Assembly (NCBI GenBank): GCA_036480375.1
Contig: JAZGGI010000010.1
Coordinates: forward strand, 1 to 64,000
Direction of reading: 5' to 3'
DNA from: Candidatus Zixiibacteriota bacterium
Lineage (GTDB): Bacteria > Zixibacteria > MSB-5A5 > GN15 > JAAZOE01
DNA: 64,000 bases
In this document: positions 36,084 through 53,974 of the stretch, in pieces
How the letters are laid out: each line of letters opens with the position of its first letter
How positions within the stretch are numbered: the first letter of the stretch is position 1
Notes under the pieces: generated by a model
Told to the model about the DNA's origin: nothing
Database searches by the model: none
What the model saw: only the letters and a program-made list of their open reading frames with translations
Position numbers and translations under genes: made by a program

Positions 36084-39000
36084 ATGGTTTTTTTTGTGCT
36101 AAAAAGAAACGCGCTCACATATTTAGTTCTTATTGTCCTTTCATTTACCGGAAACTCGATTTGCCGGGCCGAATCATCCGCCAACGCGCATTATCCTGAT
36201 TTTGAAATCGACTATATCGCCGATAACCATATTTCGATAAAGTATTCCCCCTTATATTCAAACGATTATTCTTCAATAAGACGTTTGGCGCGACATAATT
36301 ACAACGGTAAAGAGGTATTGGGCCGTTCGGTATTAGTCGTGGTTCCGGAGTGGGGCGAAATGAACTTCACTTTCAATTTTAAAAAAGTCGGAGCATTAGG
36401 GTTTGATAATAAGGGTGACTATGTGTCCGAGCAGTCGCCGCTGGTCGTCAAACATTCAGAATTTATGGCCCGGGGGCACAGAATAGTCAGATTTTTGATA
36501 TTTCCTCAGAGAATAGAAGAGACTGGACTGGGCTCCTATGATGATTTTGCGATAGATGTTTATTTTGAGAAAACCGCGCGCTCTTCTTCCCTTGTTGAGA
36601 AGCAAGCGCGTTTGGATTCTCTTTTGGCTCGGACCGTGATTAACGACAGGCAATTTTTCTCATTCGGCGCTTCCCGAAATAATATGGTGGTTTATAAGCC
36701 TGTTGAATCCAATTTTGGAAACGCCACGAAATGGCTGAAAATCGCGGTTGATGAATACGGTGTTTATCGAATTACCGGAAGTGATTTGGTCAATGTTGGC
36801 GTAAATCTTTCAGGTCTATCTTCTGATTCATTGCGGTTATTTTACGGAGGCGGAAAAAATCCTCCGATCGGATTTTCGGAATCATTGCCCGAGTTATATG
36901 AAATTCCCGTGGATATTATTGACGGCGGTGACGGCGTCTTCAATTCGGGAGATTATATTTTGTTTTACGGTCAGGCGGTAAATCGATATGATTACTTTCA
37001 GGATCCCCCGGGTTACATCAGGAATATTTATAATCGGCTGAATTATTACTGGCTGGCGGTCGGCGGCGATCATTCGTCTTCGCCTTTGCGCTGGCGGCAA
37101 ATTGTGTCTGAGAATGGGACGCCTGATTTGACATTAAATAATTTCAGACAGCTCAAAATGGTTGAGCAGGATCATGATTTACGGGTTGATAGCGACGGCC
37201 ATATCCGCAATTACTATACCTGGTACTGGTCGAATATGCCCAATGTTACGGCATCTTTTAGTCTCGATAATCCGGCTCCCGATGATATTATAGAAATAGA
37301 GATGGCGGCTATCGCCAATTTTTCAGGATCATCTCTTGTGCTGAACGGAACCGAGATGACTCGAACGACCGGCTCGGGAACAGTATACAAATATGAGGTC
37401 AATTCCGATGCCGGTTCCGCGGGATTGAATACCGCACAAGTTTCGTTGCAGCCAAATATTCGCGGAACCTATCTTGATTATCTAAGCGTTAATTATCCGC
37501 AGATTTTGGAATATGCGAATCCTCAATTGGCTTTCAGTTCCTTTACCTATTCGGGGCTGATTAAATACCATATCGCTAATGTTGGACAATTTTCGCGAGT
37601 ACTGGATATTACACTTCCGGACGATCCGGCCATCATTGAAAATATGAGCTTGTCAGGCGATACTGCAGAATTTCAGATGATGGTGGGAGATGATATATCG
37701 CGTTTTGTATTATTCTCTGAGTATGACGTTTTACAGCCAGAATGGATTAGAAATTGGGAAGGTGAAAATCTACGAAATGATATTTCTCAATACGATTGTA
37801 TTATTGTGGGGCCAGGCGGATTTGCAGGGGCCGTTGATGAATATGTATCGTATCGGCAGGGGCAAGGATATAGCCTGAAGCCTGTCGCCGTGGAAGATAT
37901 TTATGATCAATTCGGATTCGGTCTGGAATCTCCTCTCGCGATACGTAACTATCTGAAATTCGCCTACGAAAATTTCGCCTCTCCGGCTCCATATGCCGTT
38001 CTATTGGTGGGGGACGGTCATTATGATTTTCTGGATAATATGGAGCATCATTCTCCTTCGTATATGCCTCCCTTTATCTGGGAATTTGATCATTCGGCCG
38101 GAGATGACAATTTTGTCTATTTTGGCGATTTTGCTATGCTTGATTCGGACAGCAGTTACGTCATCAATTCTGACCGGGGCTGGGATATGATGGTTGCTCG
38201 CTGGCCGGTGAGGTCTTCTTATGAAGTTTCCTCCTATATTGAGAAAGTAAAACGATATGAATCGGAAGAGAATCAGGGCATTTGGAGAAGCAAAGTTACT
38301 TTTGTCGCTGATGATGAGTTTAAGAGTAATTATACGGGAGAGATAATTCATACCGCCCAAGCGGAGACGCTGGCGGTATTTCATACGCCTCCTGAAATTA
38401 CAAAGCAGAAAATTTATGCCACTGAATATTCTTTCGCCTCCAGCGGCGAAAAGCCGATGGTCAATGATGCTATCGTCAAGACTATAAACGAAGGGACGCT
38501 AATTATAAATTACATTGGGCATGGTTCTCCGGATGTTTGGGCTGATGAGCATATATTCAAGAAAAATTCTGATCTGGGACGGCTGCGCAATCTTGATAAA
38601 CCGGTTATCGTAATCGCCGGCTCATGTTCCATAGGAAAATTCGATCAACCCTCCAAAGAGGGTATGGCGGAGATGATATTCCGCCAGGAAAACGGCGCTA
38701 TTGAAACCGTCTCGGCGACGCGGCTCGTCTACTCGAGGGATAACGCTATTTTCAGTTACGATTTGTATGATGCCGTTTTTGGTGGTTCCAAAAATATAAC
38801 GGAAGCGGTATTCGCAGCCAAGCTCTTGCATCAATACGAACGGTCAGAGCAGGTTAATCTTCTTCGGAACGACCGTTCTTATGTCGTTTTTGGCGATCCG
38901 CTCGGGGATATGGGAATCCCCGAATATAAAATAACTATTAATCCGACGTCCGCGAGTACGCTGGTACCATTGGAGAATTTTGAATTTTCAGGCGAGGTCG

Positions 39001-39971
39001 TCGATAACGATGATAATATTGTCGTGGTAGATGGGTTAGTCAACGTGGACGTTTATGATTCTCGATTTGTCCGCCATCACCCCATGGGAATGGATTATTC
39101 TCTCGGCGGCCCGCGGATTTTCAGCGGTGTTTTTGAAGTCAGTTCCGGCCGGTTTGAGGGAGGATTTATTGTCCCTCTGGATATTGATTATGGTGGCAAT
39201 GCCGCGCAGATATCATGTTTTGGATCTTTCGGTATCGGCTCCGCTCTGGGATGTCTCGATTCTATAGAAATTTCCCAAAACGCAGGAACGACGACGGATA
39301 ATGACGGTCCCGTAATTGAATATACATTTGAGGAAAATCCTGATTTTGTAAATGGAGGAAGAATTCCTTCAAATGCAACTCTTGTTCTAAATATCGCCGA
39401 TAATTCGGGAATTAATCTCACCGGCGGATTGGGGCATAGGATTGAATTGACAATCGATAACGATAATAACTCGACTTTGAATTTAACCGATTATTTTGCG
39501 TATAATCAGGGCAGTTATCAGGAAGGTCAAATAAGTTACCGCCTGCCGGAATTAACGCCGGAGAAGCATATTTTCAGGGTAAAAGTATGGGATAACGCCA
39601 ACAATCCGGGTATAATCGAGTTTGAGGTATTATCTTCTCAGGCAGGCAGTATCACCATTCACAATGTCTTAAACTATCCCAATCCGATGGAAGAATCGAC
39701 TGAATTTTATTTTGAATTGAGCGAACCCGCGGAATGGGCGGAACTAAAGATATTTACGCTGGCGGGCCGCCAAATAAAAACGCTTCGTGAGACGGATTTG
39801 AATTGCGGTCGAAATCGCCGCTTTTTCTGGAATGGGCGCGACCTCGATAGCGATCGTATCGCCGAGGGAGTCTATCTTTATAAAATTACGGTAAAAGGTA
39901 AGGTGTTTTCCAGCGGTAGAACTACCGATAACTTGACCGAGGCATTCGGTAAACTGGTTTTACTGAATTAA
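36084..39971 (+). CDS. porU: PorU-like C25 (gingipain-family) peptidase/sortase
   Basis: This 1295-residue secreted protein has a signal peptide (hydrophobic core TYLVLIVLSFTG, cleavage near CRA) and a large N-terminal beta-rich region. A C25 caspase-like domain lies at about residues 580-950, with catalytic H813 (NYIGHGSPDVW) and C848 (IAGSCSIGKFDQ). Ig-like domains follow, and the last ~85 residues are a FlgD/T9SS-type C-terminal domain (NYPNPMEESTEFYF...GVYLYKITVKG). PorU of Bacteroidota is the type IX sortase that cleaves C-terminal signals and attaches cargo to the surface, and is encoded next to porV, exactly as here. A non-sortase surface gingipain is the alternative. A hairpin precedes the start and no good ribosome site is seen. 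Confidence 0.78.
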   Translation: MVFFVLKRNALTYLVLIVLSFTGNSICRAESSANAHYPDFEIDYIADNHISIKYSPLYSNDYSSIRRLARHNYNGKEVLGRSVLVVVPEWGEMNFTFNFKKVGALGFDNKGDYVSEQSPLVVKHSEFMARGHRIVRFLIFPQRIEETGLGSYDDFAIDVYFEKTARSSSLVEKQARLDSLLARTVINDRQFFSFGASRNNMVVYKPVESNFGNATKWLKIAVDEYGVYRITGSDLVNVGVNLSGLSSDSLRLFYGGGKNPPIGFSESLPELYEIPVDIIDGGDGVFNSGDYILFYGQAVNRYDYFQDPPGYIRNIYNRLNYYWLAVGGDHSSSPLRWRQIVSENGTPDLTLNNFRQLKMVEQDHDLRVDSDGHIRNYYTWYWSNMPNVTASFSLDNPAPDDIIEIEMAAIANFSGSSLVLNGTEMTRTTGSGTVYKYEVNSDAGSAGLNTAQVSLQPNIRGTYLDYLSVNYPQILEYANPQLAFSSFTYSGLIKYHIANVGQFSRVLDITLPDDPAIIENMSLSGDTAEFQMMVGDDISRFVLFSEYDVLQPEWIRNWEGENLRNDISQYDCIIVGPGGFAGAVDEYVSYRQGQGYSLKPVAVEDIYDQFGFGLESPLAIRNYLKFAYENFASPAPYAVLLVGDGHYDFLDNMEHHSPSYMPPFIWEFDHSAGDDNFVYFGDFAMLDSDSSYVINSDRGWDMMVARWPVRSSYEVSSYIEKVKRYESEENQGIWRSKVTFVADDEFKSNYTGEIIHTAQAETLAVFHTPPEITKQKIYATEYSFASSGEKPMVNDAIVKTINEGTLIINYIGHGSPDVWADEHIFKKNSDLGRLRNLDKPVIVIAGSCSIGKFDQPSKEGMAEMIFRQENGAIETVSATRLVYSRDNAIFSYDLYDAVFGGSKNITEAVFAAKLLHQYERSEQVNLLRNDRSYVVFGDPLGDMGIPEYKITINPTSASTLVPLENFEFSGEVVDNDDNIVVVDGLVNVDVYDSRFVRHHPMGMDYSLGGPRIFSGVFEVSSGRFEGGFIVPLDIDYGGNAAQISCFGSFGIGSALGCLDSIEISQNAGTTTDNDGPVIEYTFEENPDFVNGGRIPSNATLVLNIADNSGINLTGGLGHRIELTIDNDNNSTLNLTDYFAYNQGSYQEGQISYRLPELTPEKHIFRVKVWDNANNPGIIEFEVLSSQAGSITIHNVLNYPNPMEESTEFYFELSEPAEWAELKIFTLAGRQIKTLRETDLNCGRNRRFFWNGRDLDSDRIAEGVYLYKITVKGKVFSSGRTTDNLTEAFGKLVLLN

Positions 39972-40015
39972 ACGGAAAATTTTGTTCTAAATAATCTATT
40001 TTGGAGATGGAAATT

Positions 40016-42787
40016 ATGAAGAAGGTACACATCCTGTTAATTCTCACCGCCGCATTAATGTTATCGACCTCACAATCGGTTTTGGCGGGAGTTTCCGACG
40101 CGGCGGTATTGTATCTGCGAGTCGCCGCGGGGGCGCGCCCGGGAGGAATGGGAGAAGCATTCGTGTCCGTGGCTGATGACGCTACGGCTACCTATTGGAA
40201 TCCCGCCGGTTTGGGTAACGCGCCTATAGCGGGAATACTGAAAACGGAGAAATTTCCATCTCGTTTTGGCGAGATTTCGGATGTCATAACGCTCAAGAGA
40301 AAATCGGGCCAGGAAAATTGGTTTATCGCCGGAAACAGCCTGATAATGTACGATGGAATCTCCTGGAAGACCGGCAAAGAATATGTGACTTCATCGGATC
40401 AGACCTTAACTGATTTTGTCAATAGTATTGTTTCGATTAAAAGCGATGAACAGGCCGAATTGATGTCCCACAAAATCGTCGAGGTAAATTGTTGGGTTAC
40501 CGAAGCCGAGGTTAGTAGTTTTATCGAATCGGTCAGGTCAAAAATCCCGGATGATTATAAAGAGCTGGACGTATTGAATAAAGGGCTTGATACTCTGGCC
40601 GCCGGATATAAACTTTGCCTTCTCAAACCGGATCGATTCAAAGATTTAAGAAATAAACTAAATGACGGTCTCAAAGATGAAACTTTGTCTTCCGATGAAC
40701 TGGATCGCGTCACCTTTTCTATTGAGCAGGCGGTATCACGTTTTCTTCCCAGTCGTTTGACGGTACCTTTCTCATCGGCTATAGACGGCAAACTAACCTG
40801 CCTGGGTAAAACAGCGGGATATCTATGGGTTGGAACCGATAAGGGATTGTTTCGCTTATCCGGTATGCAATGGGCCAATTTTACGACTGATGAAGGATTG
40901 CCTTCCAATGAAATTACGGTTTTAAGCGACGCTGGAGATCATATTCTGATAGGTACTACCAATGGTTTGGCCAAATATTATCACGGTTCCTTCGTTACCT
41001 ACGAAACGCTTCCGCAGAGCGCGGTTCAGGCGGTTACGATGGCTACGCCGATTAACGCCTATGCCGTAATTGATGGCATAATCTATTGTTTCAATGGCTC
41101 GGAATGGTCGGATAGTTATGATTATACGGTGCGTATTGATGATTCGATTGAAGATATCGCTCGTAGGTCGGCGATCTACGGGACGCCTTCCGAGGTGGAA
41201 AGCATTATCGGCCGGATTCGTGAATTGAACGCGGGATCTGCCCAAATAGCTACTGATGAAGTCTCCGCAGATGTCGAACAGACCGAAGATGCCTCTCTGG
41301 AAGCCGAACCGGGAACGGAAGAAACAGATACAACGGCCAATGAAAATGCCGAAATATTAGCTGAGCAGTCTGATGAAACAATAGTCGAAGGCGCATCGGA
41401 TCTCTGGTTTTCCGAGGGCAATGTCATCCAGATTCCTTATTCGGTCGGTTTGAGATTCGATGTTACAGAGATGGCAGTTGGTGGTGCAGTCCCAAAAGAT
41501 TTATGGGAGAATACAGGTGGTGCCCCATCTAATATACTCTGGATTGGTACAAAGAGCGGTTTATTATCCTTTTACGGTGATAAATGGGTACGGTTTGGAT
41601 ATGCCGAATTTTCGATACCTGTCGGAGATGCTGATGGCGAAGTTGCGTCTATGACTGTGTCGGATATCGCGGCCAAATTCATACCCGATGGTAATCCCGA
41701 TAAAATCGCCGTCCTGGCGTCCAATATAAGTGATTATAATGACCTCGATGGAGAAGAGGTTGAACCGGGCCGAACGGTTTATGTTTATAATTCAAACATC
41801 GGATCGTCGATTCGTTCAATCGGATTTGTTAATAGTAAAATATATGTCGGAACCGAATACGGCCTCGAAACAAGAGGTTCTTCGGGTTGGGAACCGGTTG
41901 ATTTTGAAGGCCTTGATCGGAAACAGGTCATTGATTGTTATGATTATGAAGGTCAATCATACTATGTGTCAACCGAGGGTATTACCAGCGAAAGTGAGGG
42001 GCAGCGTGAGATAGTTTTCATGCATGTCAACTGGCTGCCGTCGTTTAATCTCGATATTTATTATGATTTTCTATCTTATGTCCATCATAAGCGCGGTTTG
42101 GGTACATTTGGAATCAGTGTAATTTATTTAAATTACGGTAGTATCCCTGGAAGAGACGAAAGCGGGAATGAAACGGGTACTCTCACTCCTTTTGAAATTG
42201 CAATTTCAGCATCGTATGGTACTTCCATTAATTCCAGACTCAAATGGGGTATGACAGGCAGGTTTATCCATTCCCGGCTTTCTCCTCAGGGTGCCGGCCT
42301 CGAGATGGGTTCAGGTATCGCTTCGACTTTCTCCGTGGATATGGGTATTCTATATAAAGTGACGCGGAAGCTCCAATTTGGAGCGGCGATAACCAATGTT
42401 GGTCCCGATATTACTTATATCGATGCAGATCAATCGGATGCCTTACCTCGTAACATCGGTATAGGATTATCTTATAAAGTATGGGACAGTCCGTATAACA
42501 GCCTGATGGTTCAGGGTGAAATTAACAAAATCCTGGTCGGCGTAGATCGCGATTTCAAAACTGAATTGGAATACGCCATTCGCCATATTGGTTTTGAATA
42601 TTGGTACGCCAAATTTATCGCTCTGCGGGCCGGGTATAAGTATGATAAAGAAGGACAGGTTAAGCATTTGACGTTTGGCGCCGGATTGAAATTGAATCTG
42701 CTGCGTCTTGATTTTGCTTATGTGCCGTCTTCAATAGATTCACCGTTAGCCAACACATTGAGAATATCTGCTACGGTAACATTTTAG
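40016..42787 (+). CDS. porV: PorV-like outer-membrane protein with large beta-propeller insertion
   Basis: I start at ATG 40016 (GGAGATGG just upstream), not the TTG at 40001. The 923-residue product has a signal peptide, then the PorV/UPF0164 opening DAAVLYLRVAAGARPGGMGEAF...DDATATYWNPAGLG (about 25-75). It resumes the PorV-type barrel at about 670 (HVNWLPSFNLDIYYDFLSY) and runs to the end with paired amphipathic strands. Between them sit ~590 residues with propeller blades (LWVGTDKGLFRLSGMQW; TTNGLAKYYHGSF; LWIGTKSGLLSFYGDKW) and an acidic spacer near 410-460. PorV shuttles type IX cargo to PorU; an insertion this size is not something I know of in Bacteroidota PorV. Confidence 0.8.
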   Translation: MKKVHILLILTAALMLSTSQSVLAGVSDAAVLYLRVAAGARPGGMGEAFVSVADDATATYWNPAGLGNAPIAGILKTEKFPSRFGEISDVITLKRKSGQENWFIAGNSLIMYDGISWKTGKEYVTSSDQTLTDFVNSIVSIKSDEQAELMSHKIVEVNCWVTEAEVSSFIESVRSKIPDDYKELDVLNKGLDTLAAGYKLCLLKPDRFKDLRNKLNDGLKDETLSSDELDRVTFSIEQAVSRFLPSRLTVPFSSAIDGKLTCLGKTAGYLWVGTDKGLFRLSGMQWANFTTDEGLPSNEITVLSDAGDHILIGTTNGLAKYYHGSFVTYETLPQSAVQAVTMATPINAYAVIDGIIYCFNGSEWSDSYDYTVRIDDSIEDIARRSAIYGTPSEVESIIGRIRELNAGSAQIATDEVSADVEQTEDASLEAEPGTEETDTTANENAEILAEQSDETIVEGASDLWFSEGNVIQIPYSVGLRFDVTEMAVGGAVPKDLWENTGGAPSNILWIGTKSGLLSFYGDKWVRFGYAEFSIPVGDADGEVASMTVSDIAAKFIPDGNPDKIAVLASNISDYNDLDGEEVEPGRTVYVYNSNIGSSIRSIGFVNSKIYVGTEYGLETRGSSGWEPVDFEGLDRKQVIDCYDYEGQSYYVSTEGITSESEGQREIVFMHVNWLPSFNLDIYYDFLSYVHHKRGLGTFGISVIYLNYGSIPGRDESGNETGTLTPFEIAISASYGTSINSRLKWGMTGRFIHSRLSPQGAGLEMGSGIASTFSVDMGILYKVTRKLQFGAAITNVGPDITYIDADQSDALPRNIGIGLSYKVWDSPYNSLMVQGEINKILVGVDRDFKTELEYAIRHIGFEYWYAKFIALRAGYKYDKEGQVKHLTFGAGLKLNLLRLDFAYVPSSIDSPLANTLRISATVTF

Positions 42788-42845
42788 GTTGATAAGGGGA
42801 CGATTTCCCCTTATCATTGCTTACACAAAATTCAAACATCATGGG

Positions 42846-45800
42846 ATGATGATTAAAAAATTCTTATACGCTATCAGCATCATTTTTCTGCTCAGCGGCT
42901 ACTTGTGCGCTGATGATGTCCTCAGGATAAAAGACAAGCAAACAATTATTAACACCGATGAAATTACCGGCAAAAAAGGATTTTATTCCGGGCGGGCTCA
43001 GGAAAATTTTCTAAATCTGAAGCGGGATAAACCGTACGGTTTGCCAAAAGCGGCTTTGTCGGCCGGGACGGTCGATACCATCAGTATCCTCGCGCTTCGC
43101 ATCGGTTTTATTTATGAAGGAACCGATGACCCGACTACAACCGGCCGGGGCAATTTCGACACTCGCGACAGCGCGACGTTTGTCAATGACGAAGGTCATT
43201 GGCTCGATCCGGCCCCTCATAACAAGCATTATTTTGAAGCTCATTTAAGGTCTTTGAGCCATTACTGGTCGGTTGTCAGCAATGGCAAGCTTCACATTGA
43301 ATACGAAGTCTGGCCGAACGGCGCCGATGAAGATATCGGCTATTACCTTTTGGATCATTCAATGAGCTATTACGGTGAACAGCCTCCGAATTGGGGTCTG
43401 GGTGAATTTTTCCATAATGCCATAACTCGGGCGCATGACGTTGACGGTGATAATTTTGATTTCAGAGATACGCGCGGTAATAAGAAAGCGATTATTCTGT
43501 TTCATGCCGGAGCGGACCGCCAGACTGATCTGTCGTTTTCGGCCACGCCGACGCCCAATGATCTTTTTACTGGGTTTGTTACCTTTGATTCATTAAATTA
43601 CTTAATTCTCGATGCTGACACCATCGTCGAAGGCATCATTATGCCCGAGACGATGGCGCAGGATAATCGCATCACGGTCATGAACGCCGTCATGGCGCAT
43701 GAATTCGGGCATCAGCTGGGGTTAATCGATCTTTATAATACCGGTAGTTCGCCATTTTTGAGCCAGATGGGCGATTTTGCCTTGATGGACAATAACGGTT
43801 TGAATACGGCAGCGTATATTGATGAATTCGGAACGGGCGCGTTCGGAACGGTTCCGATCTTTCCGTGTGCCTGGTCGCGGGCTTTTTTGGGATTTGAAGA
43901 AGTGGTCGAATATCGGGAAGGAACATGGATTGAATTGGCGGCGGTGAAGATGGAAACGGAAAATATCAAGATCGTCAAAATTCCGATATCCGCGACTGAG
44001 TATTACCTTTTAGAAAATCGACGTTCCGATATTGACGGGAATCTTGACGGTCTCAGGGTTGATAGCACTTCCAATGTCATTTTGTGGCCGGTTAAAGTTC
44101 AGGATATTCTCGATGGCGACAGCATCATTACCGTTATGACTCCGGTTGCGGAATATGATGTTTATCTTCCGGGAAGCGGGGCGGGGATTGCGATCTGGCA
44201 TGTCGATGAAGCCGTGGCGGCCATGGATTATTATCCGTTCGATATTCATGAAAATAATTTTCAGGCCAATACTTTGCAATGGGATCGCAACCGACGGTTC
44301 ATACGTTTAGTTGAAGCGGACGGACTTATAGATTTTGGCGGCAATTATTCCCGGGGTTACGGGGTAGCGGAAGATTTATTTTATGCCGGTAATAATAGTA
44401 CGTTCGGTTCATATACAAATCCCCCTTCGATATCAAACAGCGGCGGATATACTCATATAAAAGTTGAAAACATATCCGAAGCGGATATGGTGATGACGTT
44501 TGATATCGTCAAGGAAAAGATGGCCGATAATTTTCCGCGGCGGATGTCGATTCCTTATGATCCTGATTTATCGCCCATCGCCGCCGATCTGGACGGCGAC
44601 GGCAATGATGAAATCATCGCGGTATCCGGTGATAAATTATTGGCGATGAGGCCGGATGGCCGGGACTATATGGACCCTTATGATTCACTGCTTGACAATG
44701 ACATGATCCTGAGCGTGATAAATATCGATACCGATGTCAATATCTTCCGTCCGACGGATACTCAGTATGCGTCAATGCCGCTGTTTGCACAATTGCCTCT
44801 CGGTAATATAATTACCAAACCGATTGTAGCGGAAATTCTGGATACAACTCTGGTCATGGTCGGGGCGAGCAATGGCTGGATTTATTCATATCTGCCGTTT
44901 ACCGATGTGACCACTTCACCGGGAAAATATCGAGCCAAGCTCCATTCGCTTCGTTCTTTGCAGGGCTCGGCCGGAGTCAGTTCCATAATAGTTGACGATG
45001 AGAACAATATCATCTACGGTTTTTATTTCGACGGAAATATTTTAGCCGCGCCGTATGACAGTATTGCATCGTTTGTTCAGCCGACTTTCGTGCGGATGCC
45101 AATGATTGTCGGCGTATGTAAATATGGCGGCGGTATGGCGGTACTATATGACAGACACGATTATTCGATTTTATATCAAACGCGATTCGCGCCATTTGCC
45201 GATTTGACTGATTCGTTTTTTATCGACAGCGTAATTATCGATGAAACCGATTTCCACAGGTCTCCAATAGCATCTGATTTTAATCGTGATGGGATTGATG
45301 AAATTATAATTGTTTCGGAAAGCGGCCAGGTTTTTGCTTATAGTTTTACCGCAGATGATATAGTTGACTATGACGAATTGAATATACAGACCGGAGATAC
45401 GGTCGCGTCCGATCCGGCCATAGCTGATAGGGATAATGACGGATTTCCGGAACTTTATATTCCCGGAATCAATAAAATATATGGATATGATCGATACGGA
45501 ACGGCGATGACTGATTTTCCCCTGGATATTGATTTTGATCGCCCCGGACAGGTTATTATTGGCGGGCCGATTATATCGGATATCAACGGGGATAATATTA
45601 TTGATGTGGCGGTAATCGGATTGGATTCGATCATCTATGAGCGAACGATACCGGCTTTTTATATCATGTATCCCGATACGATTAATTATCCCGATTCGGC
45701 GATTGTTATTGATACCGTATTGGATTATGCCTATTACAATTATTACAGCAATCTCTATGCGATAACACCCGGATACGGAATTTTACCGGGTTATCCGACT

Positions 45801-46331
45801 CCGGCGGGGATGCTGGGAATGAGACAGGTTAATGATACGATCAACGGCATCGGAACACCACTTCATGTTCGGAACGGTTCCGGCGGACTGCTGGTAACTT
45901 TCGGCGGTGATGGCTGGATGGATGCCTGGGATTGCGACTGGTCGGATATCAGCGCCGGTTGGCCGATGAGCGGAGGTTATGCCGACGGTTCGGGATATAC
46001 GCCCTTAGATTCTTTGGGTCAGGAAAAAGTGCTGGCGGATTTGCTTCCGGAATCGAGTTTTTATAATTATCCCAATCCGGCTTCCGGTGAGAAGACCACG
46101 ATTCGATTTTATGTCAATCAACCGGCGCGGGTGACGGTTTCGATGTTTGACGCCACGGGCGATTTAGTTGAGGAAAAATTCACCGAGGTCGCCGACGGCA
46201 ATCGCAATGTCGAGATTGATTGGTATCTTTCGGGCGTGGCTTCGGGGATTTACCATTGCCGGGTCGAAGCGGCGCCGATGGCTGGCGGGGATACGGAAGT
46301 AGCCTTTACAACCATTGCCATTGTTAGATAG
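42846..46331 (+). CDS. Secreted M6-family metalloprotease with FG-GAP-like repeats and T9SS-like C-terminal domain
   Basis: The start is uncertain; ATG 42846 or 42849 gives a proper signal peptide (MIKKFLYAISIIFLLSGYLCA), while the TTG at 42789 adds an unlikely extension. The 1161-residue protein has an M6 (immune inhibitor A-like) domain with zinc motif HEFGHQLGLID (H285, E286, H289). Integrin/FG-GAP-like repeats follow (IAADLDGDGNDEII; ASDFNRDGIDEIII; ADRDNDGFPELYI; SDINGDNIIDVAVI). A terminal sorting-like domain FYNYPNPASGEKTTIRFYV...GIYHCRVEA of the same type as in the PorU-like protein completes it. It is the natural cargo for the adjacent PorU/PorV pair. Confidence 0.85.
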   Translation: MMIKKFLYAISIIFLLSGYLCADDVLRIKDKQTIINTDEITGKKGFYSGRAQENFLNLKRDKPYGLPKAALSAGTVDTISILALRIGFIYEGTDDPTTTGRGNFDTRDSATFVNDEGHWLDPAPHNKHYFEAHLRSLSHYWSVVSNGKLHIEYEVWPNGADEDIGYYLLDHSMSYYGEQPPNWGLGEFFHNAITRAHDVDGDNFDFRDTRGNKKAIILFHAGADRQTDLSFSATPTPNDLFTGFVTFDSLNYLILDADTIVEGIIMPETMAQDNRITVMNAVMAHEFGHQLGLIDLYNTGSSPFLSQMGDFALMDNNGLNTAAYIDEFGTGAFGTVPIFPCAWSRAFLGFEEVVEYREGTWIELAAVKMETENIKIVKIPISATEYYLLENRRSDIDGNLDGLRVDSTSNVILWPVKVQDILDGDSIITVMTPVAEYDVYLPGSGAGIAIWHVDEAVAAMDYYPFDIHENNFQANTLQWDRNRRFIRLVEADGLIDFGGNYSRGYGVAEDLFYAGNNSTFGSYTNPPSISNSGGYTHIKVENISEADMVMTFDIVKEKMADNFPRRMSIPYDPDLSPIAADLDGDGNDEIIAVSGDKLLAMRPDGRDYMDPYDSLLDNDMILSVINIDTDVNIFRPTDTQYASMPLFAQLPLGNIITKPIVAEILDTTLVMVGASNGWIYSYLPFTDVTTSPGKYRAKLHSLRSLQGSAGVSSIIVDDENNIIYGFYFDGNILAAPYDSIASFVQPTFVRMPMIVGVCKYGGGMAVLYDRHDYSILYQTRFAPFADLTDSFFIDSVIIDETDFHRSPIASDFNRDGIDEIIIVSESGQVFAYSFTADDIVDYDELNIQTGDTVASDPAIADRDNDGFPELYIPGINKIYGYDRYGTAMTDFPLDIDFDRPGQVIIGGPIISDINGDNIIDVAVIGLDSIIYERTIPAFYIMYPDTINYPDSAIVIDTVLDYAYYNYYSNLYAITPGYGILPGYPTPAGMLGMRQVNDTINGIGTPLHVRNGSGGLLVTFGGDGWMDAWDCDWSDISAGWPMSGGYADGSGYTPLDSLGQEKVLADLLPESSFYNYPNPASGEKTTIRFYVNQPARVTVSMFDATGDLVEEKFTEVADGNRNVEIDWYLSGVASGIYHCRVEAAPMAGGDTEVAFTTIAIVR

Positions 46332-46351: not shown

Positions 46352-47254
46352 ATGAATGTGAGATTTGTTTCAATCTACAGTACACTTATGCTGGCATGTG
46401 TTTGTTCATGTTCTTTATGTTATGCTTCCGATGAAATAAATCCTCCATATACAAATAACGGATCCGGGTTTTCGATCAATCAATATTTGAATGAAATCAA
46501 TTCTTATTCAGTTCTGACATTAAATGATGACGATGGAAACGATAAAGGCAAGACTTTGAATTTTCGCGAGGGCGTCCAAAAAGAAAAAAAATCAAGCGGC
46601 CATAAAAGCCCGGTTAGGGCGTTTATTTATTCTGCCATAATTCCGGGAGCGGGACAGATGTATAACGGCTCCAAAATTAAAGCAGTGGCGTTTTTGGGAT
46701 TGGAGGCGCTGGCCTGGACCGGCCATATTATCTACAACGGCAAGGGCGATGACAAGACAACGGCCTATGAGACTTATGCCAATACTAATTGGAGCGAGGG
46801 AACATACAGTGATTGGTTGGAAATGCACTGGGGTTATAGAGATGATGAGTTAGTTCTGAATGATCGCGGATTTCCGCTTTTTACTCATCATTTACCAGAC
46901 ACCAGGACTCAGCAATATTATGAGATGATAGGTAAGTACAATCAGTTTGTTTACGGCTGGGCGGATGTCAATTATCAAGATTCCGACGGGGACCCGCACC
47001 CTGGAACTTATTCGGCAATGCGGATGCATTATGAAACGATGCGGCATGATGCCAATAAAATGTATGATAAGGCGACGACTTCGATTGTTGTTTCGATGAT
47101 TAATCATGTTATCTCCGGATTTGAAGCGGCTCTGGCGGCCCGAAGCCATAATAAAAACCTGGATACACTGGCAAATAAAGTTTCGGTCAAAGCCCATACG
47201 GCGCAATTGAATGATGAATATTTTCCAATGTTAACAATGACATATAAATTTTAG
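46352..47254 (+). CDS. DUF5683-type envelope protein (first of tandem pair)
   Basis: This 300-residue product has a signal peptide (hydrophobic LMLACVCSCSLCYA) and a DUF5683-like core, SPVRAFIYSAIIPGAGQMYNGSKIKAVAFLGLEALAW, with two short hydrophobic segments, and then a helical region ending AALAARSHN. A further beta-strand pair at the C-terminus ends in an aromatic (MTYKF), as in outer-membrane proteins. The family's function is unknown. GGAGG precedes the start. The next gene is a diverged paralogue with the same IPGAG-xYxGS core. Confidence 0.75.
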   Translation: MNVRFVSIYSTLMLACVCSCSLCYASDEINPPYTNNGSGFSINQYLNEINSYSVLTLNDDDGNDKGKTLNFREGVQKEKKSSGHKSPVRAFIYSAIIPGAGQMYNGSKIKAVAFLGLEALAWTGHIIYNGKGDDKTTAYETYANTNWSEGTYSDWLEMHWGYRDDELVLNDRGFPLFTHHLPDTRTQQYYEMIGKYNQFVYGWADVNYQDSDGDPHPGTYSAMRMHYETMRHDANKMYDKATTSIVVSMINHVISGFEAALAARSHNKNLDTLANKVSVKAHTAQLNDEYFPMLTMTYKF

Positions 47255-47260: not shown

Positions 47261-48046
47261 ATGAACAAGATATTTTTATCTATAGCGTTAGTATTATTGA
47301 TATTCGCGGGTAATTGTCTGGCGGTGGAGTTTTCTTTCAATTCATCGAGTGTGATTAAGCCGTTTCCTCCAATATCAAGGCATTTCCTTATGTCAGGACT
47401 GAGCGATACCGGCAAGACTTTTCTCGATATGTCCCAGCCCGAATCGGATAAAAGCAAATTGTCCATGAAGAAGGCTTTGTTTCTATCCATTCTTATCCCA
47501 GGAGCGGGAGAATATTATGCCGGTTCCAGGTTCAAAGGTCAGGTATTTTTGGGAGTCGAGGCGGCTATCTGGAGCGGTTTTATTGCCTATCGTGTTTACG
47601 GCGGATGGAAAAAGGATGACTATTTGTCGCTTGCTTCCGCTTATGGCGGAGTCAATACGTCCGGTAAAGATGATGTTTTTTATGATATGGTTGGATTTTA
47701 TGATAATCGGGATGAATACAATCAATTCGGCCGTTTATATCATCCCGACCGACCGTATTACCCCGATACTGATGAATACGATTGGCAATGGGATTCGGAA
47801 GAGCGGCGTCTGAGATACAAAGAATTGAAAGATCAGGCCAAGACCGCTTTTCGCAATTCGACTTTTCTTATCGGTCTGGCGATTGCCAATCGGGTTGTTT
47901 CTGCTATTGATACCTACCGGACGGTTAAATCGGCCAAGAAAAAAGTAAGTTCATTAACGCAATTTGGCGAATATCATATGAAAGTGTCACCAAAGATCTT
48001 TGGGAGGAATCCCGAGATTAAATTATCTTTGACGCGGAAGTTTTGA
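47261..48046 (+). CDS. DUF5683-type envelope protein (second of tandem pair)
   Basis: This 261-residue paralogue of the preceding protein has a signal peptide (MNKIFLSIALVLLIFAGNCLA), the core SILIPGAGEYYAGSRFKGQVFLGVEAAIWSGFIAYRV, the later helix FLIGLAIANRVVSAIDTYR and a C-terminal strand ending in phenylalanine (LSLTRKF). It is 6 bases after its partner and one base before the NHL lipoprotein gene. A joint role with the partner in the envelope is likely, mechanism unknown. Confidence 0.75.
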   Translation: MNKIFLSIALVLLIFAGNCLAVEFSFNSSSVIKPFPPISRHFLMSGLSDTGKTFLDMSQPESDKSKLSMKKALFLSILIPGAGEYYAGSRFKGQVFLGVEAAIWSGFIAYRVYGGWKKDDYLSLASAYGGVNTSGKDDVFYDMVGFYDNRDEYNQFGRLYHPDRPYYPDTDEYDWQWDSEERRLRYKELKDQAKTAFRNSTFLIGLAIANRVVSAIDTYRTVKSAKKKVSSLTQFGEYHMKVSPKIFGRNPEIKLSLTRKF

Positions 48047-48047
48047 G

Positions 48048-49013
48048 ATGCGACCGGCGGTAATTATCTGTCTGATAATTCTCGTTTCATGCGGTGGTAA
48101 CGCGCCGCCTCCCGTTCCGGATAATATTAATAGCTCGATTACAGGACCTGTTTCTCTCATTTTTGAAAATAAAATTTCCGGGCGGATATTGACACATGAT
48201 TTACTGCAGCCTTCCGGTCTGGCGATTGATACACGAGGCGATATATATATAAGCGATAATGGCAATCATCGTATAATAAAGCTTGATCAGAATTTAAAGA
48301 CGATTCGTGATTACGGCGGCTATGGGACAGGTATGGGACGTCTGCAAAACCCGAATGATTTATTCGTTGATCGGGTACTCAATCTTTATGTTCTCGATAC
48401 CGGAAACAGGCGCGTGGTACATCTTGACGCCAATTTGAATTTTGTCGAGGAAATTATCCCGGAAGACGACCCCGAAGAGATTATATCAACGTTGACCTAC
48501 TATTCGGGTTTGGCAGTGTCGCCGATGGGGGAATTGACGGTAGCCGACTATGATAATTCGCGCCTTATCCGGATGGATAATTTTAATCATTTCAGTCGGT
48601 ACATCGGTGATTTTGGATACGGCCAGGGAACGCTTCTTAATCCAAAATCGCTGGCACTCGATCAGGATGGTAATCATTATGTCGCCGATATGGGAAACAA
48701 ACGCATCGCCGTTTTTGATGATTATGGAAATTTCATTCGGCAAATTGGAAGTCAAATGCTTGAAAGTCCCGAAGCGGTGGCGGTTGGAAACAATGGTTTG
48801 GTCTGGGTATCAGATAGTCGGTTAAGGACAATTATGGCTTTTCATAATTCCGGAAAACTAATATTTGACGGCCTTAAAGAAATGAGTCCGGATACAAAAT
48901 TGGATAATGTACAAGCCCTGACGGTAACTCCCGATGGCAAGTTATTTGTTGCCAATACCGGTAATAACGAAATTTTAATCTACCGTATAATTTATGAGGC
49001 CAATAAGGATTAA
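48048..49013 (+). CDS. NHL-repeat lipoprotein
   Basis: This 321-residue protein has a lipoprotein signal peptide with lipobox LVSC (C16 or nearby) and about six NHL beta-propeller blades. These show the recurring pattern PSGLAIDTRGDIYISDNGNHRIIKLD, PNDLFVDRVLNLYVLDTGNRRVV, PKSLALDQDGNHYVADMGNKRIAVFD and so on. Lipidated propellers of this kind line the periplasm or surface and often bind peptides or glycans. It sits inside the T9SS-like cluster and overlaps the next gene's start by 20 nt. PorE-like accessory lipoproteins of type IX systems also contain propeller repeats, so it could be a functional counterpart. Confidence 0.85.
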   Translation: MRPAVIICLIILVSCGGNAPPPVPDNINSSITGPVSLIFENKISGRILTHDLLQPSGLAIDTRGDIYISDNGNHRIIKLDQNLKTIRDYGGYGTGMGRLQNPNDLFVDRVLNLYVLDTGNRRVVHLDANLNFVEEIIPEDDPEEIISTLTYYSGLAVSPMGELTVADYDNSRLIRMDNFNHFSRYIGDFGYGQGTLLNPKSLALDQDGNHYVADMGNKRIAVFDDYGNFIRQIGSQMLESPEAVAVGNNGLVWVSDSRLRTIMAFHNSGKLIFDGLKEMSPDTKLDNVQALTVTPDGKLFVANTGNNEILIYRIIYEANKD

Positions 49014-52000
49014 TCCGGATAGATGTCAAGTGGCGGTTATTTTTTTGGCGTTAGCCGCGTTATCTATTTTCCTTAATCCTTGCGCGCACGGGGAATATCT
49101 CAGCATAAAATTGGCAATTCAACCGGATGATACTCTAATTCAGACCGGTTTGGAGCCGTTTGCGGATAATTCCGATTCCATTTATTGCGGCGGCAAGATC
49201 CTTCGGCGGGGAATCGACTATCGCCTTCATCCTCGCACAGGCAGACTGAAGATTTTAACGAGGATTGATTGCGATAGTATCGACGTCCGTATTTTTCACC
49301 TTCCCAAATGGCTGTTTGAATCATCGGGAAATAAACCGGGAGAGGGTAGAAAATTTATCAATCTGCCCGGTTCCGGTATCAGGCCATCAACAGATCGACA
49401 TCGCCCATCGGATTTAAGGAAGATAAACCTATCGGGTAACAAATCATTCGCATTTAACGTCGGAAAATCGGGTCAGAGTAATTTTTCTCAGGGATTATCG
49501 GTTGACTTTGATGCCCGCATTGGTTCGGATTTAGAAATCAAGGGTTCGGTTTCCGATAAGATCAATTCCGTAAATAACCCGATAGGTCCGGGCGGATCGA
49601 CAATGCTATTATCGGAACTCGATAAATATTATTTTGAGATCAAGGGAAAACAACTGACGGCCCGAGCGGGAGATATTCCATCCATATCAAATCCATATTT
49701 ACCGCAAAAACGAATTACAGGAATATCGAGTGTCTTTAAATTCAATCAATATAAAGCCGCGGCTTCAATCGGGCGGCCGGCCGGTAAATTTCATATCGCA
49801 CGAATCCGGGGTATTGACGGCAAACAGGGGCCTTATCAAGTAAACAGCCGGGCGGGCGTTCCGGTTGCGATTGTGGCGGGTTCGGAAAAAATCTATGTCG
49901 ACGGACGGCTCCTCGAAGGACGCACTGATCGCCATTATGTTATTGATTATTCCGCCGGAAGGATAACATTTTCACCGGCAGTATTGATAACCTCCCGCAG
50001 CCGCATGGAGATTGATTTTGAGGAAGCTGACAATTTTTATTCTCAGGCAGTCTATGAATTGTCACAGGATATAAATCTATTCAGCAATCGATTGAGATTA
50101 TCATTCGGAGGGAGGCGCGAGTTAGAGGAAAAAGACAGGCTAAGATTTTTGTCATTGAGTCCGGCGGATATCGTTAGTTTGTCTGCAGCGGGTGATTCAA
50201 TTTCGCGCGCCTTTCAAAGCGGCGCCACGGCCGATACAGCAGGAGACTATGTGCTTACAATTGATACCGCGGGGAACCAGTATTATGAATTCGTCGGATC
50301 GGGAAGGGGGGAATATTCTGTTCAGTTTTCATTCGTCGGGGAAAGTCAGGGTGATTATATCCGCCTTGGCGAAAATGTATTTCAATTCAACGGGGCGGGG
50401 CAAGGTGATTATTTGCCGGTTAGATTATTGCCCCTGCCGTCATCAAACAGTTTTTTCTACTCTGCCGCGGAAATAAGGCCGTACAGTGAAGGCATAATCA
50501 GTATTGAATATCACGGCAATGACCGTGATGAAAATTTATTTTCCAATATCGACGACGAGGATAATTTTCGCAGCCGAATGAAGGCGAAGTTTTCGCATAC
50601 TAATAAAAAAATGCAATCTCAGACCATGGTCAGATACCAGAGCAAGAATTATAATCCGATCTATCGAGTCAATATCCCCGATAATAACAGGATGTGGGCG
50701 CTTCCCGAAGAGATAATTGATGGGGACGAATTTCGCTTCGAATCCGAGCACCGGTTTACATTCTCTAATCATAAATTCGCATTTGATGGTGGATTTATTA
50801 ATTATGGTGAAATTTTGAGAGCGTATCGATTTAATATTGAAGCTGCAAATTTCACGGATAATTTTATAAGCCCGCGAATGAATTACAAAGTTGGGAATTC
50901 GCATGATAAAATACTTTCTGAATCGAAGGGGCTTTTTGAACAATACTCGGCGGGATTGCTCATAAAAGGTCCTAAAACATCCCGGATTGATCTGGAATTT
51001 ATAAACGAATTGAAGAAGGATTTTTTCGAGAATGTACCGGATGTCGAAAAATACTCTGAATACAAATCGGATCTATTCATTCGTAATACTGTCCTTACAG
51101 TTTCTCGGCGGGTTGATTTTCAAAGCGATGATTATGGGCGCAAAGGGCCGAGACTTGACAAGGTAACGTTTAATTCGGATGAGAATCTTGGGCGGCTGAA
51201 GCTTAATTTTACCGGTACAATCCTTAATCAAAAGCGCCTTGATTCATTTCGCGATGATCGAACCGCAAGGCTTTTCGCCACGACTATGCGATATCTGGCT
51301 CCGGACGGGTGGTTGTCCCTTCAGGCGGATTATCGTCAAAATAGCGAGCTGGGGAAATCATCGGAATTCAGATATATTGAAGTAGAAAGCGGTCAGGGAA
51401 ATTATCGTTTTGAGGATGACCAGTATTTTTTTGATATAGATGGCGATTTTATCAGGGTCCGTCAAGAAGTCGGTCAGGCGGTTTCAATTACACGAGGTGA
51501 GAAAACGCACAATATTACCTTAAATCCGGGACGGGCAGGATTTCTCGAAAAATATCATTTATGGTTAAGCCAGTTTGCTTTCCGCCTGCGGTCTGAAATT
51601 GTTGAGGAGGCCGTGGGTAAAGACAGAAGAAATCTATCGTGGGTGCTCCCGTGGACAAGTCGATCGGGTGTGGATTATGTGAACCGCATCCGCCGAGAAC
51701 GATATATGTTATTACTTTTCCCCCGAATGAGATTCTATGTGCTAAATTTCATTTTTACTCACAATTTCAGAGAGCAAGACGGCGGCCTATCTAATTTTAA
51801 AGACTCGAAAAACTACAAAGCCGAAATAAAAAATGCTCTTTCTTCAAAACTGAATTCAATTTTGAAATATAATCATATCCGCACCGGGCAATCGGGCAGC
51901 GGATTAATTGCCGCGAAAATACGAACCTCGAAATATGGATGGGAATTGATATATGCAGGTGGAATATTTCAAATTATGCCTGAGCTTGAGCATGTGCGTT

Positions 52001-52311
52001 TTAATGAATCAAAAAATGGGGGACGGGGAGAAGGGTTTGCCACAAAAATCGAGGCAATCGCCCGATATTCCGGCCGGGGTGAATTTCGTTTTCGAGGGGA
52101 ATTTCGTAATTTATCCGAAAAGGAACATTTCACCACACCGGAATATTTCGTGACCGACGGTCATCGTTTCGGAAAATCAGGGCAAATTTCAGTGATAGTG
52201 AATTATAAAATCGGTAAAGCGATGAGAATAACCGCCAGTATGAGAAATGTATTCTATGAAAATCGAGAATCTGAATTTACCGGAAGAGGTGAGCTGGTTG
52301 CGTTATTCTAA
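48994..52311 (+). CDS. Large outer-membrane beta-barrel protein, SprA-reminiscent
   Basis: This 1105-residue product has a signal peptide (VAVIFLALAALSIFLNPCAHG). The second half is dominated by alternating amphipathic strands and ends in an aromatic/hydrophobic strand (RGELVALF), as in barrels. The N-terminal region has a plug-like HYVIDYSAGRITFSPAVLITS...RMEIDFEE segment resembling the repeated domain of SprA, the type IX translocon, and DARIGSDLEIKGSVSDKINS typical of its strands. A GxGxY motif recurs: GSGRGEYSV, GESQGDYIRL, GAGQGDYLPV, ESGQGNYRFE. It is half the length of Bacteroidota SprA (~2400). I cannot prove homology by eye. Confidence 0.6.
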   Translation: MRPIRINPDRCQVAVIFLALAALSIFLNPCAHGEYLSIKLAIQPDDTLIQTGLEPFADNSDSIYCGGKILRRGIDYRLHPRTGRLKILTRIDCDSIDVRIFHLPKWLFESSGNKPGEGRKFINLPGSGIRPSTDRHRPSDLRKINLSGNKSFAFNVGKSGQSNFSQGLSVDFDARIGSDLEIKGSVSDKINSVNNPIGPGGSTMLLSELDKYYFEIKGKQLTARAGDIPSISNPYLPQKRITGISSVFKFNQYKAAASIGRPAGKFHIARIRGIDGKQGPYQVNSRAGVPVAIVAGSEKIYVDGRLLEGRTDRHYVIDYSAGRITFSPAVLITSRSRMEIDFEEADNFYSQAVYELSQDINLFSNRLRLSFGGRRELEEKDRLRFLSLSPADIVSLSAAGDSISRAFQSGATADTAGDYVLTIDTAGNQYYEFVGSGRGEYSVQFSFVGESQGDYIRLGENVFQFNGAGQGDYLPVRLLPLPSSNSFFYSAAEIRPYSEGIISIEYHGNDRDENLFSNIDDEDNFRSRMKAKFSHTNKKMQSQTMVRYQSKNYNPIYRVNIPDNNRMWALPEEIIDGDEFRFESEHRFTFSNHKFAFDGGFINYGEILRAYRFNIEAANFTDNFISPRMNYKVGNSHDKILSESKGLFEQYSAGLLIKGPKTSRIDLEFINELKKDFFENVPDVEKYSEYKSDLFIRNTVLTVSRRVDFQSDDYGRKGPRLDKVTFNSDENLGRLKLNFTGTILNQKRLDSFRDDRTARLFATTMRYLAPDGWLSLQADYRQNSELGKSSEFRYIEVESGQGNYRFEDDQYFFDIDGDFIRVRQEVGQAVSITRGEKTHNITLNPGRAGFLEKYHLWLSQFAFRLRSEIVEEAVGKDRRNLSWVLPWTSRSGVDYVNRIRRERYMLLLFPRMRFYVLNFIFTHNFREQDGGLSNFKDSKNYKAEIKNALSSKLNSILKYNHIRTGQSGSGLIAAKIRTSKYGWELIYAGGIFQIMPELEHVRFNESKNGGRGEGFATKIEAIARYSGRGEFRFRGEFRNLSEKEHFTTPEYFVTDGHRFGKSGQISVIVNYKIGKAMRITASMRNVFYENRESEFTGRGELVALF

Positions 52312-53974
52312 TTTCATATTATACATAAGCGCCTGTATATGTTTGTGCATGAATATAAGCGCCAATCAATTCGCGGTTGAATACACCGGAGATATGCCCG
52401 ATACATTCGTCAAAACCGGCATTGAAAAAATCATTGCGAATATCAAGCGCGACAGGGCCACGGATACGTTGGGTGAGTTTCTTATCTCGTCAGGTTATTT
52501 GAATAATCAAATATCCATTAATGATTCGACAATAACCATTATTGCGGGACCGGTGTATTATGTTGACCTGATAAATCTTGAAATAATAAAATCTGACGGC
52601 GAAAAAATTAGTAAGCAAATCAATCAATTGACCGATGTAATTGCGTCGAGGGAAAATATCGAATCTATCAAATCAGAGATTTTAGATGAATATCAAGATG
52701 AGGGGTATTTTTTTGCATCTTTAAACGTAGTTGGTGTGACGCATTATAACAATTCATTAGAACTCAATTTAAGACTTATAACCGGTCCTCCCGTGAATCT
52801 GGAGCGGGTCAGGTTTAAGGGGCTTTCCAAAACGTCTCCCGATTTTGTTGAAAAATTATCGGGGCTTAAAGCTGGAGATGCCTTAATTTTCTCTAATATC
52901 GAAAGCGCCGCTGAAAAAATAAGTAATAGCGGATTTTTGTCTATTGACACAATTCCATCGGTAATCCCAAATCAGAATTATGATGGGGTAGAACTGACAT
53001 TCATCTTATCTGAGTTGAAAAGTAACCAGATTGAATTTGCCGGAGGTTATTTGCCCGGACGGGGCGACCGGGACGGTGAGTTTGTCGGCTATTTGAATTT
53101 CAAATCGAAGAACATTTTTGGCGGCGGTCGCCGAATTGATTTGTTGCTTGACCGAAAAGACAGACTGTCGTCAAGAATCGAATTCGGGTATCTTCAGCCG
53201 GTATTTACTCCTGATTTATTGGAAATTTCCGGGCGTTTTCGTCAAATTGATAACGGTGATTTTTACCATCTGTTTTCAATCGAAGGGGCTCTCACGATTC
53301 AGATCAGAAAACATACTAAATTATCAGGTGCGATTTCATGGACGAAAACCGAAGCTCAAAATATGTTACAAGCGCCTTCTCGGGCGTGGACAGGGGAGTT
53401 TTCTTATCAGTATTCCAATCTTGATGACGCACTGAATCCATCGAAGGGGAGTTCGCTCGGCGGGAGTATTTCATATATTCGCAGGGTAAGCTGGCCCGAT
53501 ACCGTCGCGACAGGTGTTATCAATAACGACAGCAAAGTTTCCATTTCGGCTGATAATTTTATACCTCTTACAAATCATATAGTATTTCGCTTGAATTTTG
53601 AAAATCGGATATATATTACTTCCCGTGACCTCATTGATTTCTCGGAGCAATTTAAGCTCGGGGGATACGGATCATTGAGAGGATATCGGCAGGAACAGTT
53701 TGCCGGACGACGCGTAGCCCTTGGGCAGGCGGAATTGCGCTACCGACCCTCTACCGCCGCATCACTATACATATTTTCGGATATAGGTTATATCTATTCT
53801 CTCAAATTATCTCCGGGAAGCGATCTGATAAACGAAGAACTACTCAAACCCGGTTTCGGAGCGGGGATATTTGCGGCGAAGTCAAATACTTCAGTTACTC
53901 TTGAAGCCGGATGGGGCGAGAACGATAATCTGGGGCAGGGGAAGCTTCATTTTGGTTTGCGGACCAAGTTTTAG
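52298..53974 (+). CDS. Omp85/BamA-TamA family outer-membrane protein
   Basis: I choose TTG 52298 (AGAGGTGAG upstream), which yields a signal peptide (FILYISACICLCMNISA). Starting at 52247 would bury that and increase overlap with the previous gene from 14 to 65 nt. The 558-residue protein has two to three POTRA-like domains (about 30-250; INQLTDVIASRENIESIKSEI...GYFFASLNV; RVRFKGLSKTSPDFVEKLSGLKAGD). A D15/bacterial surface antigen barrel with GGYGSLRGYRQEQFAGRRVALGQAELRYRP follows, whose RGY is the hallmark. The end FGLRTKF is a terminal barrel strand. The family inserts or exports proteins at the outer membrane. Confidence 0.88.
   Translation: MRYSNFILYISACICLCMNISANQFAVEYTGDMPDTFVKTGIEKIIANIKRDRATDTLGEFLISSGYLNNQISINDSTITIIAGPVYYVDLINLEIIKSDGEKISKQINQLTDVIASRENIESIKSEILDEYQDEGYFFASLNVVGVTHYNNSLELNLRLITGPPVNLERVRFKGLSKTSPDFVEKLSGLKAGDALIFSNIESAAEKISNSGFLSIDTIPSVIPNQNYDGVELTFILSELKSNQIEFAGGYLPGRGDRDGEFVGYLNFKSKNIFGGGRRIDLLLDRKDRLSSRIEFGYLQPVFTPDLLEISGRFRQIDNGDFYHLFSIEGALTIQIRKHTKLSGAISWTKTEAQNMLQAPSRAWTGEFSYQYSNLDDALNPSKGSSLGGSISYIRRVSWPDTVATGVINNDSKVSISADNFIPLTNHIVFRLNFENRIYITSRDLIDFSEQFKLGGYGSLRGYRQEQFAGRRVALGQAELRYRPSTAASLYIFSDIGYIYSLKLSPGSDLINEELLKPGFGAGIFAAKSNTSVTLEAGWGENDNLGQGKLHFGLRTKF

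Follow-up and report, generated by a model that had tools for sequence, protein, structure and literature searches.

The stretch of DNA analysed here (the window) covers positions 1 to 64,000 of contig JAZGGI010000010.1 in the assembly GCA_036480375.1 of a Candidatus Zixiibacteriota bacterium, whose genome (G000) comprises 3.59 Mb in 50 contigs. On the forward strand it contains a tightly packed cluster of type IX secretion system (T9SS) genes, in the order PorU, a PorV-family barrel, an M6-like protein, two DUF5683 proteins, an NHL-repeat lipoprotein, the protein studied here (the target) and an Omp85 protein. The open reading frame (ORF) of the target, at 48994-52311, begins with ATG and encodes 1,105 residues; its first 20 bases are shared with the end of the NHL gene, and it also overlaps the longest reading of the Omp85 gene downstream. 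The initial annotation, made from sequence alone, had described a strand-rich outer-membrane protein of about 1,100 residues, half the size of SprA, and had recognised in it an SprA-like segment. ORF and translation are exactly as annotated, the segment (DYSAGRITFSPAVLITS) is present at about residues 318-334, and the length compares with 2,025 residues for the SprA of the same genome and 2,403 for that of Flavobacterium johnsoniae. The evidence presented below suggests that the target may represent a sister family of SprA.

The target protein matched no Pfam or NCBIfam family at E values up to 10, and for eight members of its family from Bacteroidota no Pfam or NCBIfam model scored above cut-off. 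Sequence searches of the PDB gave no match with the target protein and chance-level matches only with the family alignments A1 and A3. When our contig collection was searched with the target protein alone no relative was found, but a profile scan of the contigs did find relatives. Among 132 Zixibacteria genomes, 111 matched in the single-protein search and 126 in a search with profile A2, of which 112 were kept as target-bearing, including short fragments at contig ends in G071 and G001. The 14 matches set aside (best E 1.5e-8 to 5.2e-13) have the strength of a match to SprA's own module; those in G029, G006 and G105 fall in SprA ORFs, and we infer the same for the rest. The profile matched 226 of 394 Bacteroidota genomes, or 225 once G233 (E 7.5e-8) was dropped, and further members occur in records labelled Krumholzibacteriota, Cloacimonadota, Hydrothermus, Aegiribacteria, Ignavibacteriales and Rhodothermales. 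Where uncut by a contig end, family ORFs are mostly about 1,050-1,250 residues long, and most genomes have a single copy. The target is the Zixibacteria member of an unnamed family found throughout the Fibrobacterota-Chlorobiota-Bacteroidota (FCB) group.

The relation to SprA proposed in the initial annotation is supported, as a distant one. The SprA model TIGR04189 matches the target at window positions 49843-50046 (residues 284-351; 20.1 bits, E 9.4e-5), 18 of 24 family members at E values up to 1 (best 5.7e-8) and three of eight Bacteroidota members (16.9 to 29.3 bits). The target falls below the curated whole-protein cut-off of 200 bits, which the 2,025-residue ORF on C7, the genome's own SprA, passes with 622.5 bits. 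SprA_N (PF14349) matched only this SprA in the genome, and nothing on C10, at E values up to 10. In profile-profile comparison with hhalign (98 target chains against 48 SprA chains), residues 290-380 aligned with SprA 639-728 (score 119.7, probability 97.3%) and residues 46-110 with SprA 632-699 (74.3, 90.1%), well above the controls, which reached no more than 25.1 for reversed SprA, 27.5 for Omp85 and 24.4 for PorV. Three further segments, each weak alone, lie in SprA order with scores above the controls: residues 141-274 with SprA 169-313 (45.0, 14%), 477-560 with 1301-1381 (42.9, 10%) and 1016-1090 with 1932-2005 (41.7, 8%). An earlier run with fewer chains had given only the two module matches clearly. 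These two matches fall on a small module, termed the DY module, that occurs twice in the target, at about residues 34-102 and 273-336. The module also weakly matches phage distal tail proteins (TIGR02217/DUF2460), so the recognised segment alone cannot carry the SprA claim. Taken together, the profile comparisons support a distant kinship of the target with SprA at the level of sequence.

Elsewhere in the genome, a 273-residue frame at C28 (257196-257483; loci L040, L007 and L008) matches the SprA DY module weakly at two places (E 0.09 and 0.4) and is perhaps a small DY-module protein.

AlphaFold2 models of the target (alignment A2, 61 rows; mean predicted local distance difference test, pLDDT, 85.5; predicted template modelling score, pTM, 0.75) and of a Rhodothermaceae-like ortholog (L138; alignment A3, 51 rows; pLDDT 83.8, pTM 0.74) are both strand-rich, as the initial annotation had anticipated. 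About 40 barrel-type strands are predicted in each of these two distant orthologs, in the same order. The count covers strands of at least seven residues, beginning with the first barrel strand and running to the C terminus, with inserted loops excluded; the figure of 40 includes a short strand (8-9 residues) that precedes the tenth and treats residues 1039-1052 of the second model as one strand. Since the N and C termini are both expected to be periplasmic, the true count is probably 38 or 40. Relative to SprA, the predicted strand number is not reduced: the chain is half-size, but the barrel, as modelled, is not. Hydrophobic alternation over the 40 strands averaged 3.55, against 2.02 in shuffled sequences (standard deviation 0.14), a value reached by none of 300 shuffles, and 26 of the 40 strands alternate individually at p < 0.05 (Trp and Tyr scored as membrane-facing). 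The target has amphipathic strands and a C-terminal aromatic residue, both features of outer-membrane beta-barrels; the terminal Phe is found in 58 of 61 alignment rows.

Compared with solved structures by VIA-align, the target model aligned with SprA (8gl6_A) over 663 residues (Z 14.8, 8.7 Å), from model residues 140-1105 to chain residues 132-2401, and the second model over 688 residues (Z 14.1, 8.8 Å). The longest alignments outside SprA were 457 residues (8agd_A, SDBC assembly) and 380 residues (FecA); among the solved chains listed, only SprA aligned over the whole barrel, and did so in both models. A TonB-dependent receptor of the SusC type was considered and rejected: no such profile matched and the strand number is far higher, despite the top rank of SusC in the Foldseek search described below.

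These alignments bear on the possibility that the likeness to SprA is convergent, the two proteins having only a mobile DY module in common and the large barrel having arisen separately. That would fit the fact that the sole strong sequence match is to this module, itself weakly phage-tail-like. The further segments near both ends, however, align in SprA order above the controls, in both proteins the module comes after the same N-terminal segment, and SprA alone aligned over the whole barrel; we therefore regard convergence as unlikely and distant kinship as the better account.

The initial annotation had also pointed to four GxGxY segments, three of them within residues 430-490, as a possible plug or ligand site. 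Three strict motifs are present, at residues 437, 469 and 800, where 0.35 are expected in shuffled sequences (three or more were reached in 91 of 20,000 shuffles); the remaining member of the 430-490 cluster, GESQGDY from residue 449, is degenerate and does not conform. With either Y or F accepted at the last position, the motif is conserved among 23 relatives, as a cluster around positions 360-505 and once near 760-855; L051 is the sole one of the 23 without any GxGxY. Residues G417, Y419, G435, G453, Y455 and G471 of the GxGxY domain are invariant in alignment A1. Mean conservation is 2.24 bits in this domain, 2.59 in the tip at 797-818 and 2.63 in the second DY module, against 1.41-1.51 in most of the barrel wall from residue 484 on. 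When strand direction is counted back from the C terminus, both the domain (384-483) and the tip lie on the outer side of the membrane. Conserved GxGxY loops on the outside of a wide barrel suggest a cap or plug in the predicted structure, so that this part of the earlier proposal remains plausible. SprA is itself capped on the outside, according to passages of PMC10994853. GxGxY was rejected as an SprA feature: it occurs in three of eight displayed Zixibacteria SprA chains, once each and unclustered.

Nearly all target-bearing genomes also encode SprA. SprA was detected in 126 of 132 Zixibacteria genomes: 109 have both proteins, 17 SprA only, three the target only (G069, G005 and G098) and three neither. 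It was detected in 302 of 394 Bacteroidota genomes, where 224 have both, 78 SprA only, one the target only (G416) and 91 neither, with G233 moved (before the move, 225, 77, 1 and 91, respectively). Sixteen genomes outside the Zixibacteria that supplied target loci, a subset of such loci, were asked, and all 16 have SprA. The target is nearly confined to SprA-bearing genomes and is not required by SprA. As the family is conserved, mostly single-copy and accompanied by a separate full-length SprA, the target is not a broken SprA, and it does not replace SprA. The idea of a reduced translocon accordingly stands as regards mass; the predicted strand number and the coexisting complete SprA instead indicate a parallel family. 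G069 (locus L042), a Zixibacteria genome 93% complete, has the target, the M6-like protein and the PorV-family protein in place with no SprA match at E 1e-10, representing either an assembly gap or a cluster that works without SprA.

The features of the locus are listed in Table 1. Across sampled Zixibacteria families the order PorV-M6i-DUF5683-DUF5683-NHL-target-Omp85 recurs. Omp85 lies directly downstream of the target in 41 of 43 distinct Zixibacteria genomes; in the remaining two a contig end interrupts the locus. Of 20 wide Zixibacteria loci, 17 have the NHL gene immediately before the target; at locus L055 only target, Omp85 and UbiA are still together. Omp85 also comes directly after the target in Krumholzibacteriota (L109, L135) and Aegiribacteria (L121, L125, L133), and adjoins it at L128. 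Neighbourhoods were readable at 39 of 40 Bacteroidota loci (L201 was left out): Omp85 is directly adjacent at none of the 39, and the NHL gene is directly upstream or one ORF away at five. At six of the 39 (L209, L211, L212, L218, L219 and L238) the genes after the target look, by eye, like an ExbB-ExbD-ExbD set.

Table 1. Features of the target and of its gene cluster, in window coordinates
Feature	Position	Strand	Evidence
PorU, T9SS sortase	36084..39971	+	NF033707, 633 bits (cut-off 420); Peptidase_C25
PorV/PorQ-family barrel behind a propeller-like region	40001..42787	+	NF033709, 246 bits, residues 666-928; PF19572
T9SS-type M6-like protein (M6i) with C-terminal sorting domain	42789..46331	+	TIGR04183, 26.9 bits (cut-off 23); NF052323, 326, below cut-off 600
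DUF5683 protein a	46352..47254	+	PF18935, 34.8 bits
DUF5683-like protein b	47261..48046	+	PF18935, 25.8 bits, just below cut-off 26.7
NHL-repeat lipoprotein-like gene	48048..49013	+	PF01436, 105.6 bits; lipobox by eye
Target: compact SprA-related giant outer-membrane barrel (predicted)	48994..52311	+	ORF; AlphaFold2 model, pLDDT 85.5, pTM 0.75; family alignments A1, A2 and A3
Signal-peptide-like N terminus, residues 1-33	48994..49092	+	Helix 11-27 in AlphaFold2 model; reading by eye
First DY module, residues 34-102, before barrel	49093..49299	+	Profile match of SprA 632-699 to residues 46-110, 90%; strands in model
First eight barrel-type strands, residues 144-272	49423..49809	+	Both models; residues 141-274 weakly aligned with SprA 169-313, E 0.0019
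Second DY module with DYSAGRITF, residues 273-336	49810..50001	+	TIGR04189, E 9.4e-5; SprA profile match 97.3%; mean conservation 2.63 bits, most conserved region of target
GxGxY loop domain, residues 384-483, candidate cap or plug	50143..50442	+	Motifs at 437 and 469, degenerate near 451; 2.24 bits
Remaining barrel, residues 484-1105, Phe-terminated	50443..52308	+	Strands with in-out hydrophobic alternation
Second GxGxY loop at the end of a long hairpin, residues 797-818 (motif at 800)	51382..51447	+	2.59 bits; flanking strands 774-796 and 819-843
Partner Omp85, POTRA domains and barrel, 575 residues, TamA-sized	52247..53974	+	PF01103, E 6.6e-16; PF07244

In the protein encoded at 40001-42787 the region before the barrel weakly resembles two-component propellers, and residues 6-77 match the PorV of 6h3i (E 0.0043); a propeller seems to have been inserted into PorV or fused to it, whereas PorZ and PorV are separate in other T9SSs. 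Downstream of Omp85, at 54011-62572, lie UbiA prenyltransferase, MoxR, DUF58, SurA-like peptidyl-prolyl isomerase and BatD-like/von Willebrand factor A (vWA) genes (MoxR, DUF58 and vWA labelled by eye), in an order largely kept across Zixibacteria. From 32 kb on, GC skew climbs to about +0.11, and nearly all genes between 32000 and 64000 are on the forward strand.

Six further Omp85 matches occur in the genome, including one next to TamB at C50, so the Omp85 neighbouring the target is an additional one. A TamA/TamB pair was considered for this neighbour and rejected, since TamB has its own Omp85 neighbour at C50. The constant adjacency raises the question of whether the target and Omp85, with or without the NHL propeller lipoprotein, could be a machine resembling the beta-barrel assembly machinery (BAM) or the translocation and assembly module, building large barrels such as SprA and PorV, with the target as scaffold instead of conduit. 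The neighbour is constant in Zixibacteria and recurs in the three other settings named above, SprA is nearly always present alongside the target, and the F. johnsoniae BAM has an extra outer-membrane barrel, BamG, as described in passages of PMC12611786. Against this, Omp85 adjoins the target at none of the 39 Bacteroidota loci, the genome already has other Omp85 proteins including that beside TamB, and BamG is likened in the same passages to FadL, a far smaller barrel. We consider such a machine improbable.

A third reading, to which we assign a similarly low probability, holds that the target is a giant exporter or importer of a polymer or lipid (e.g., a surface glycan), functionally unrelated to the T9SS, with cluster and co-occurrence reflecting shared FCB ancestry. 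The unrelated, lineage-dependent neighbours in Bacteroidota would be expected, and the alginate exporter AlgE is among the high-Z rows for both models. Yet SprA is missing from only one of 225 target-bearing Bacteroidota, while 91 of 394 lack both proteins, and the target keeps a stable place in the Zixibacteria T9SS cluster. Known polymer exporters are, moreover, far smaller than the predicted barrel. That the target is a degenerate or truncated, functionless SprA paralog, as half length and distant resemblance might suggest, is very unlikely given its conservation: the ORF is open, family members from different phyla share invariant residues and mostly keep the same length, and about 40 barrel strands are predicted.

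The explanation that we favour, with moderate confidence, is that the target family is a distant relative of SprA and forms a T9SS-associated giant outer-membrane conduit. The family, its conservation, the gene cluster, the predicted strand number and the distant sequence kinship are its computed support; the cluster is conserved, and 109 of 112 target-bearing Zixibacteria genomes and 224 of 225 in Bacteroidota have SprA. Several observations weigh against this interpretation. The barrel-segment profile matches are individually weak (14% and 8%). Several early strands show no clear alternation, with eight of the 14 non-significant strands among the first eleven. The VIA-align Z scores do not single out SprA (FimD reaches 17.4 and 18.4, and porins about 14-16), and the top Foldseek match is a SusC chain, with SprA ranking third to fifth (E 5e-8 to 8e-8). 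SprA occurs without the target in 17 of the 126 SprA-bearing Zixibacteria genomes and in 78 of the 302 in Bacteroidota, so that, if the T9SS of those genomes works, the target is not universally required for it. In the Bacteroidota loci examined the target lies outside T9SS clusters, among unrelated genes that vary with lineage. Outside the Zixibacteria the link to the T9SS is mostly co-occurrence, confounded by shared ancestry, as the counts are not tree-aware. Because so many genomes have SprA alone, the target would be an accessory component outside the minimal T9SS.

As a T9SS-associated conduit, the target would have about 40 strands in about 1,100 residues, leaving no room for SprA's large insertions, and would form a wide pore across the outer membrane. 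In Zixibacteria the adjacent TamA-sized Omp85 may insert it, and the conserved GxGxY loops and DY module may close or gate the pore. It could then provide the T9SS with a further conduit, or with a docking barrel, for clients that are folded and bound to the surface. The first candidates to be its clients or partners are encoded in the same cluster, namely PorU, the PorV-family barrel and the M6-like protein. More tentatively, and with real doubt, the family may constitute a second class of T9SS-linked translocon across the FCB group: a minimal barrel of about 40 strands, larger than the 36 of SprA, closed by GxGxY and DY elements, inserted in Zixibacteria by a dedicated Omp85 and acting at the cell surface together with PorU and PorV. 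SprA, with 36 strands according to passages of PMC10994853, PMC7463736 and PMC9581022, was described in 2020 as the largest outer-membrane barrel identified (PMC7463736). In searches of open-access papers, and in passages of PMC10994853, PMC12611786, PMC9581022 and PMC7463736, we found no mention of a second SprA-like family, and the T9SS component list, as given in passages of the 2020 review PMC7463736, has no second SprA-class barrel. The family would represent an overlooked part of the FCB outer membrane, carried by more than half of the sampled Bacteroidota and most Zixibacteria and lacking a Pfam or NCBIfam model. If the reading is correct, a pore of SprA size needs only about 1,100 residues, and the tight pairing with Omp85 would make the insertion of giant barrels directly testable.

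Several known systems share parts of this picture. The DUF2460/TIGR02217 phage distal tail proteins resemble the target in the small DY module, by weak profile matches, but they are short (models of about 205-210 positions) and are not known to form a barrel. The FimD/PapC ushers, large plugged protein-export barrels of 24 strands, give the highest structural Z (over 360 and 327 residues, respectively); unlike them, the target models have about 40 strands, and there is no sequence match. Omp85/TamA is a gene neighbour in Zixibacteria and some other phyla, and its profile score of at most 27.5 marks it as a partner, not a relative. BamG is likewise an additional outer-membrane barrel conserved across FCB phyla, but it was superimposed on the small barrel FadL and is part of BAM (passages of PMC12611786). 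SprA/Sov (TIGR04189, PF14349; PDB 6H3I, 8GL6) is, as predicted for the target, a giant single-chain barrel, with 36 strands in SprA (passages of PMC10994853 and PMC7463736), and shares with the target the DY module after an N-terminal barrel segment, the FCB distribution and near-constant co-occurrence. The target differs from it in being about half as long, far under the TIGR04189 cut-off and without an SprA_N match; it has clustered, conserved GxGxY motifs and an extra DY module before the barrel, and it coexists with SprA.

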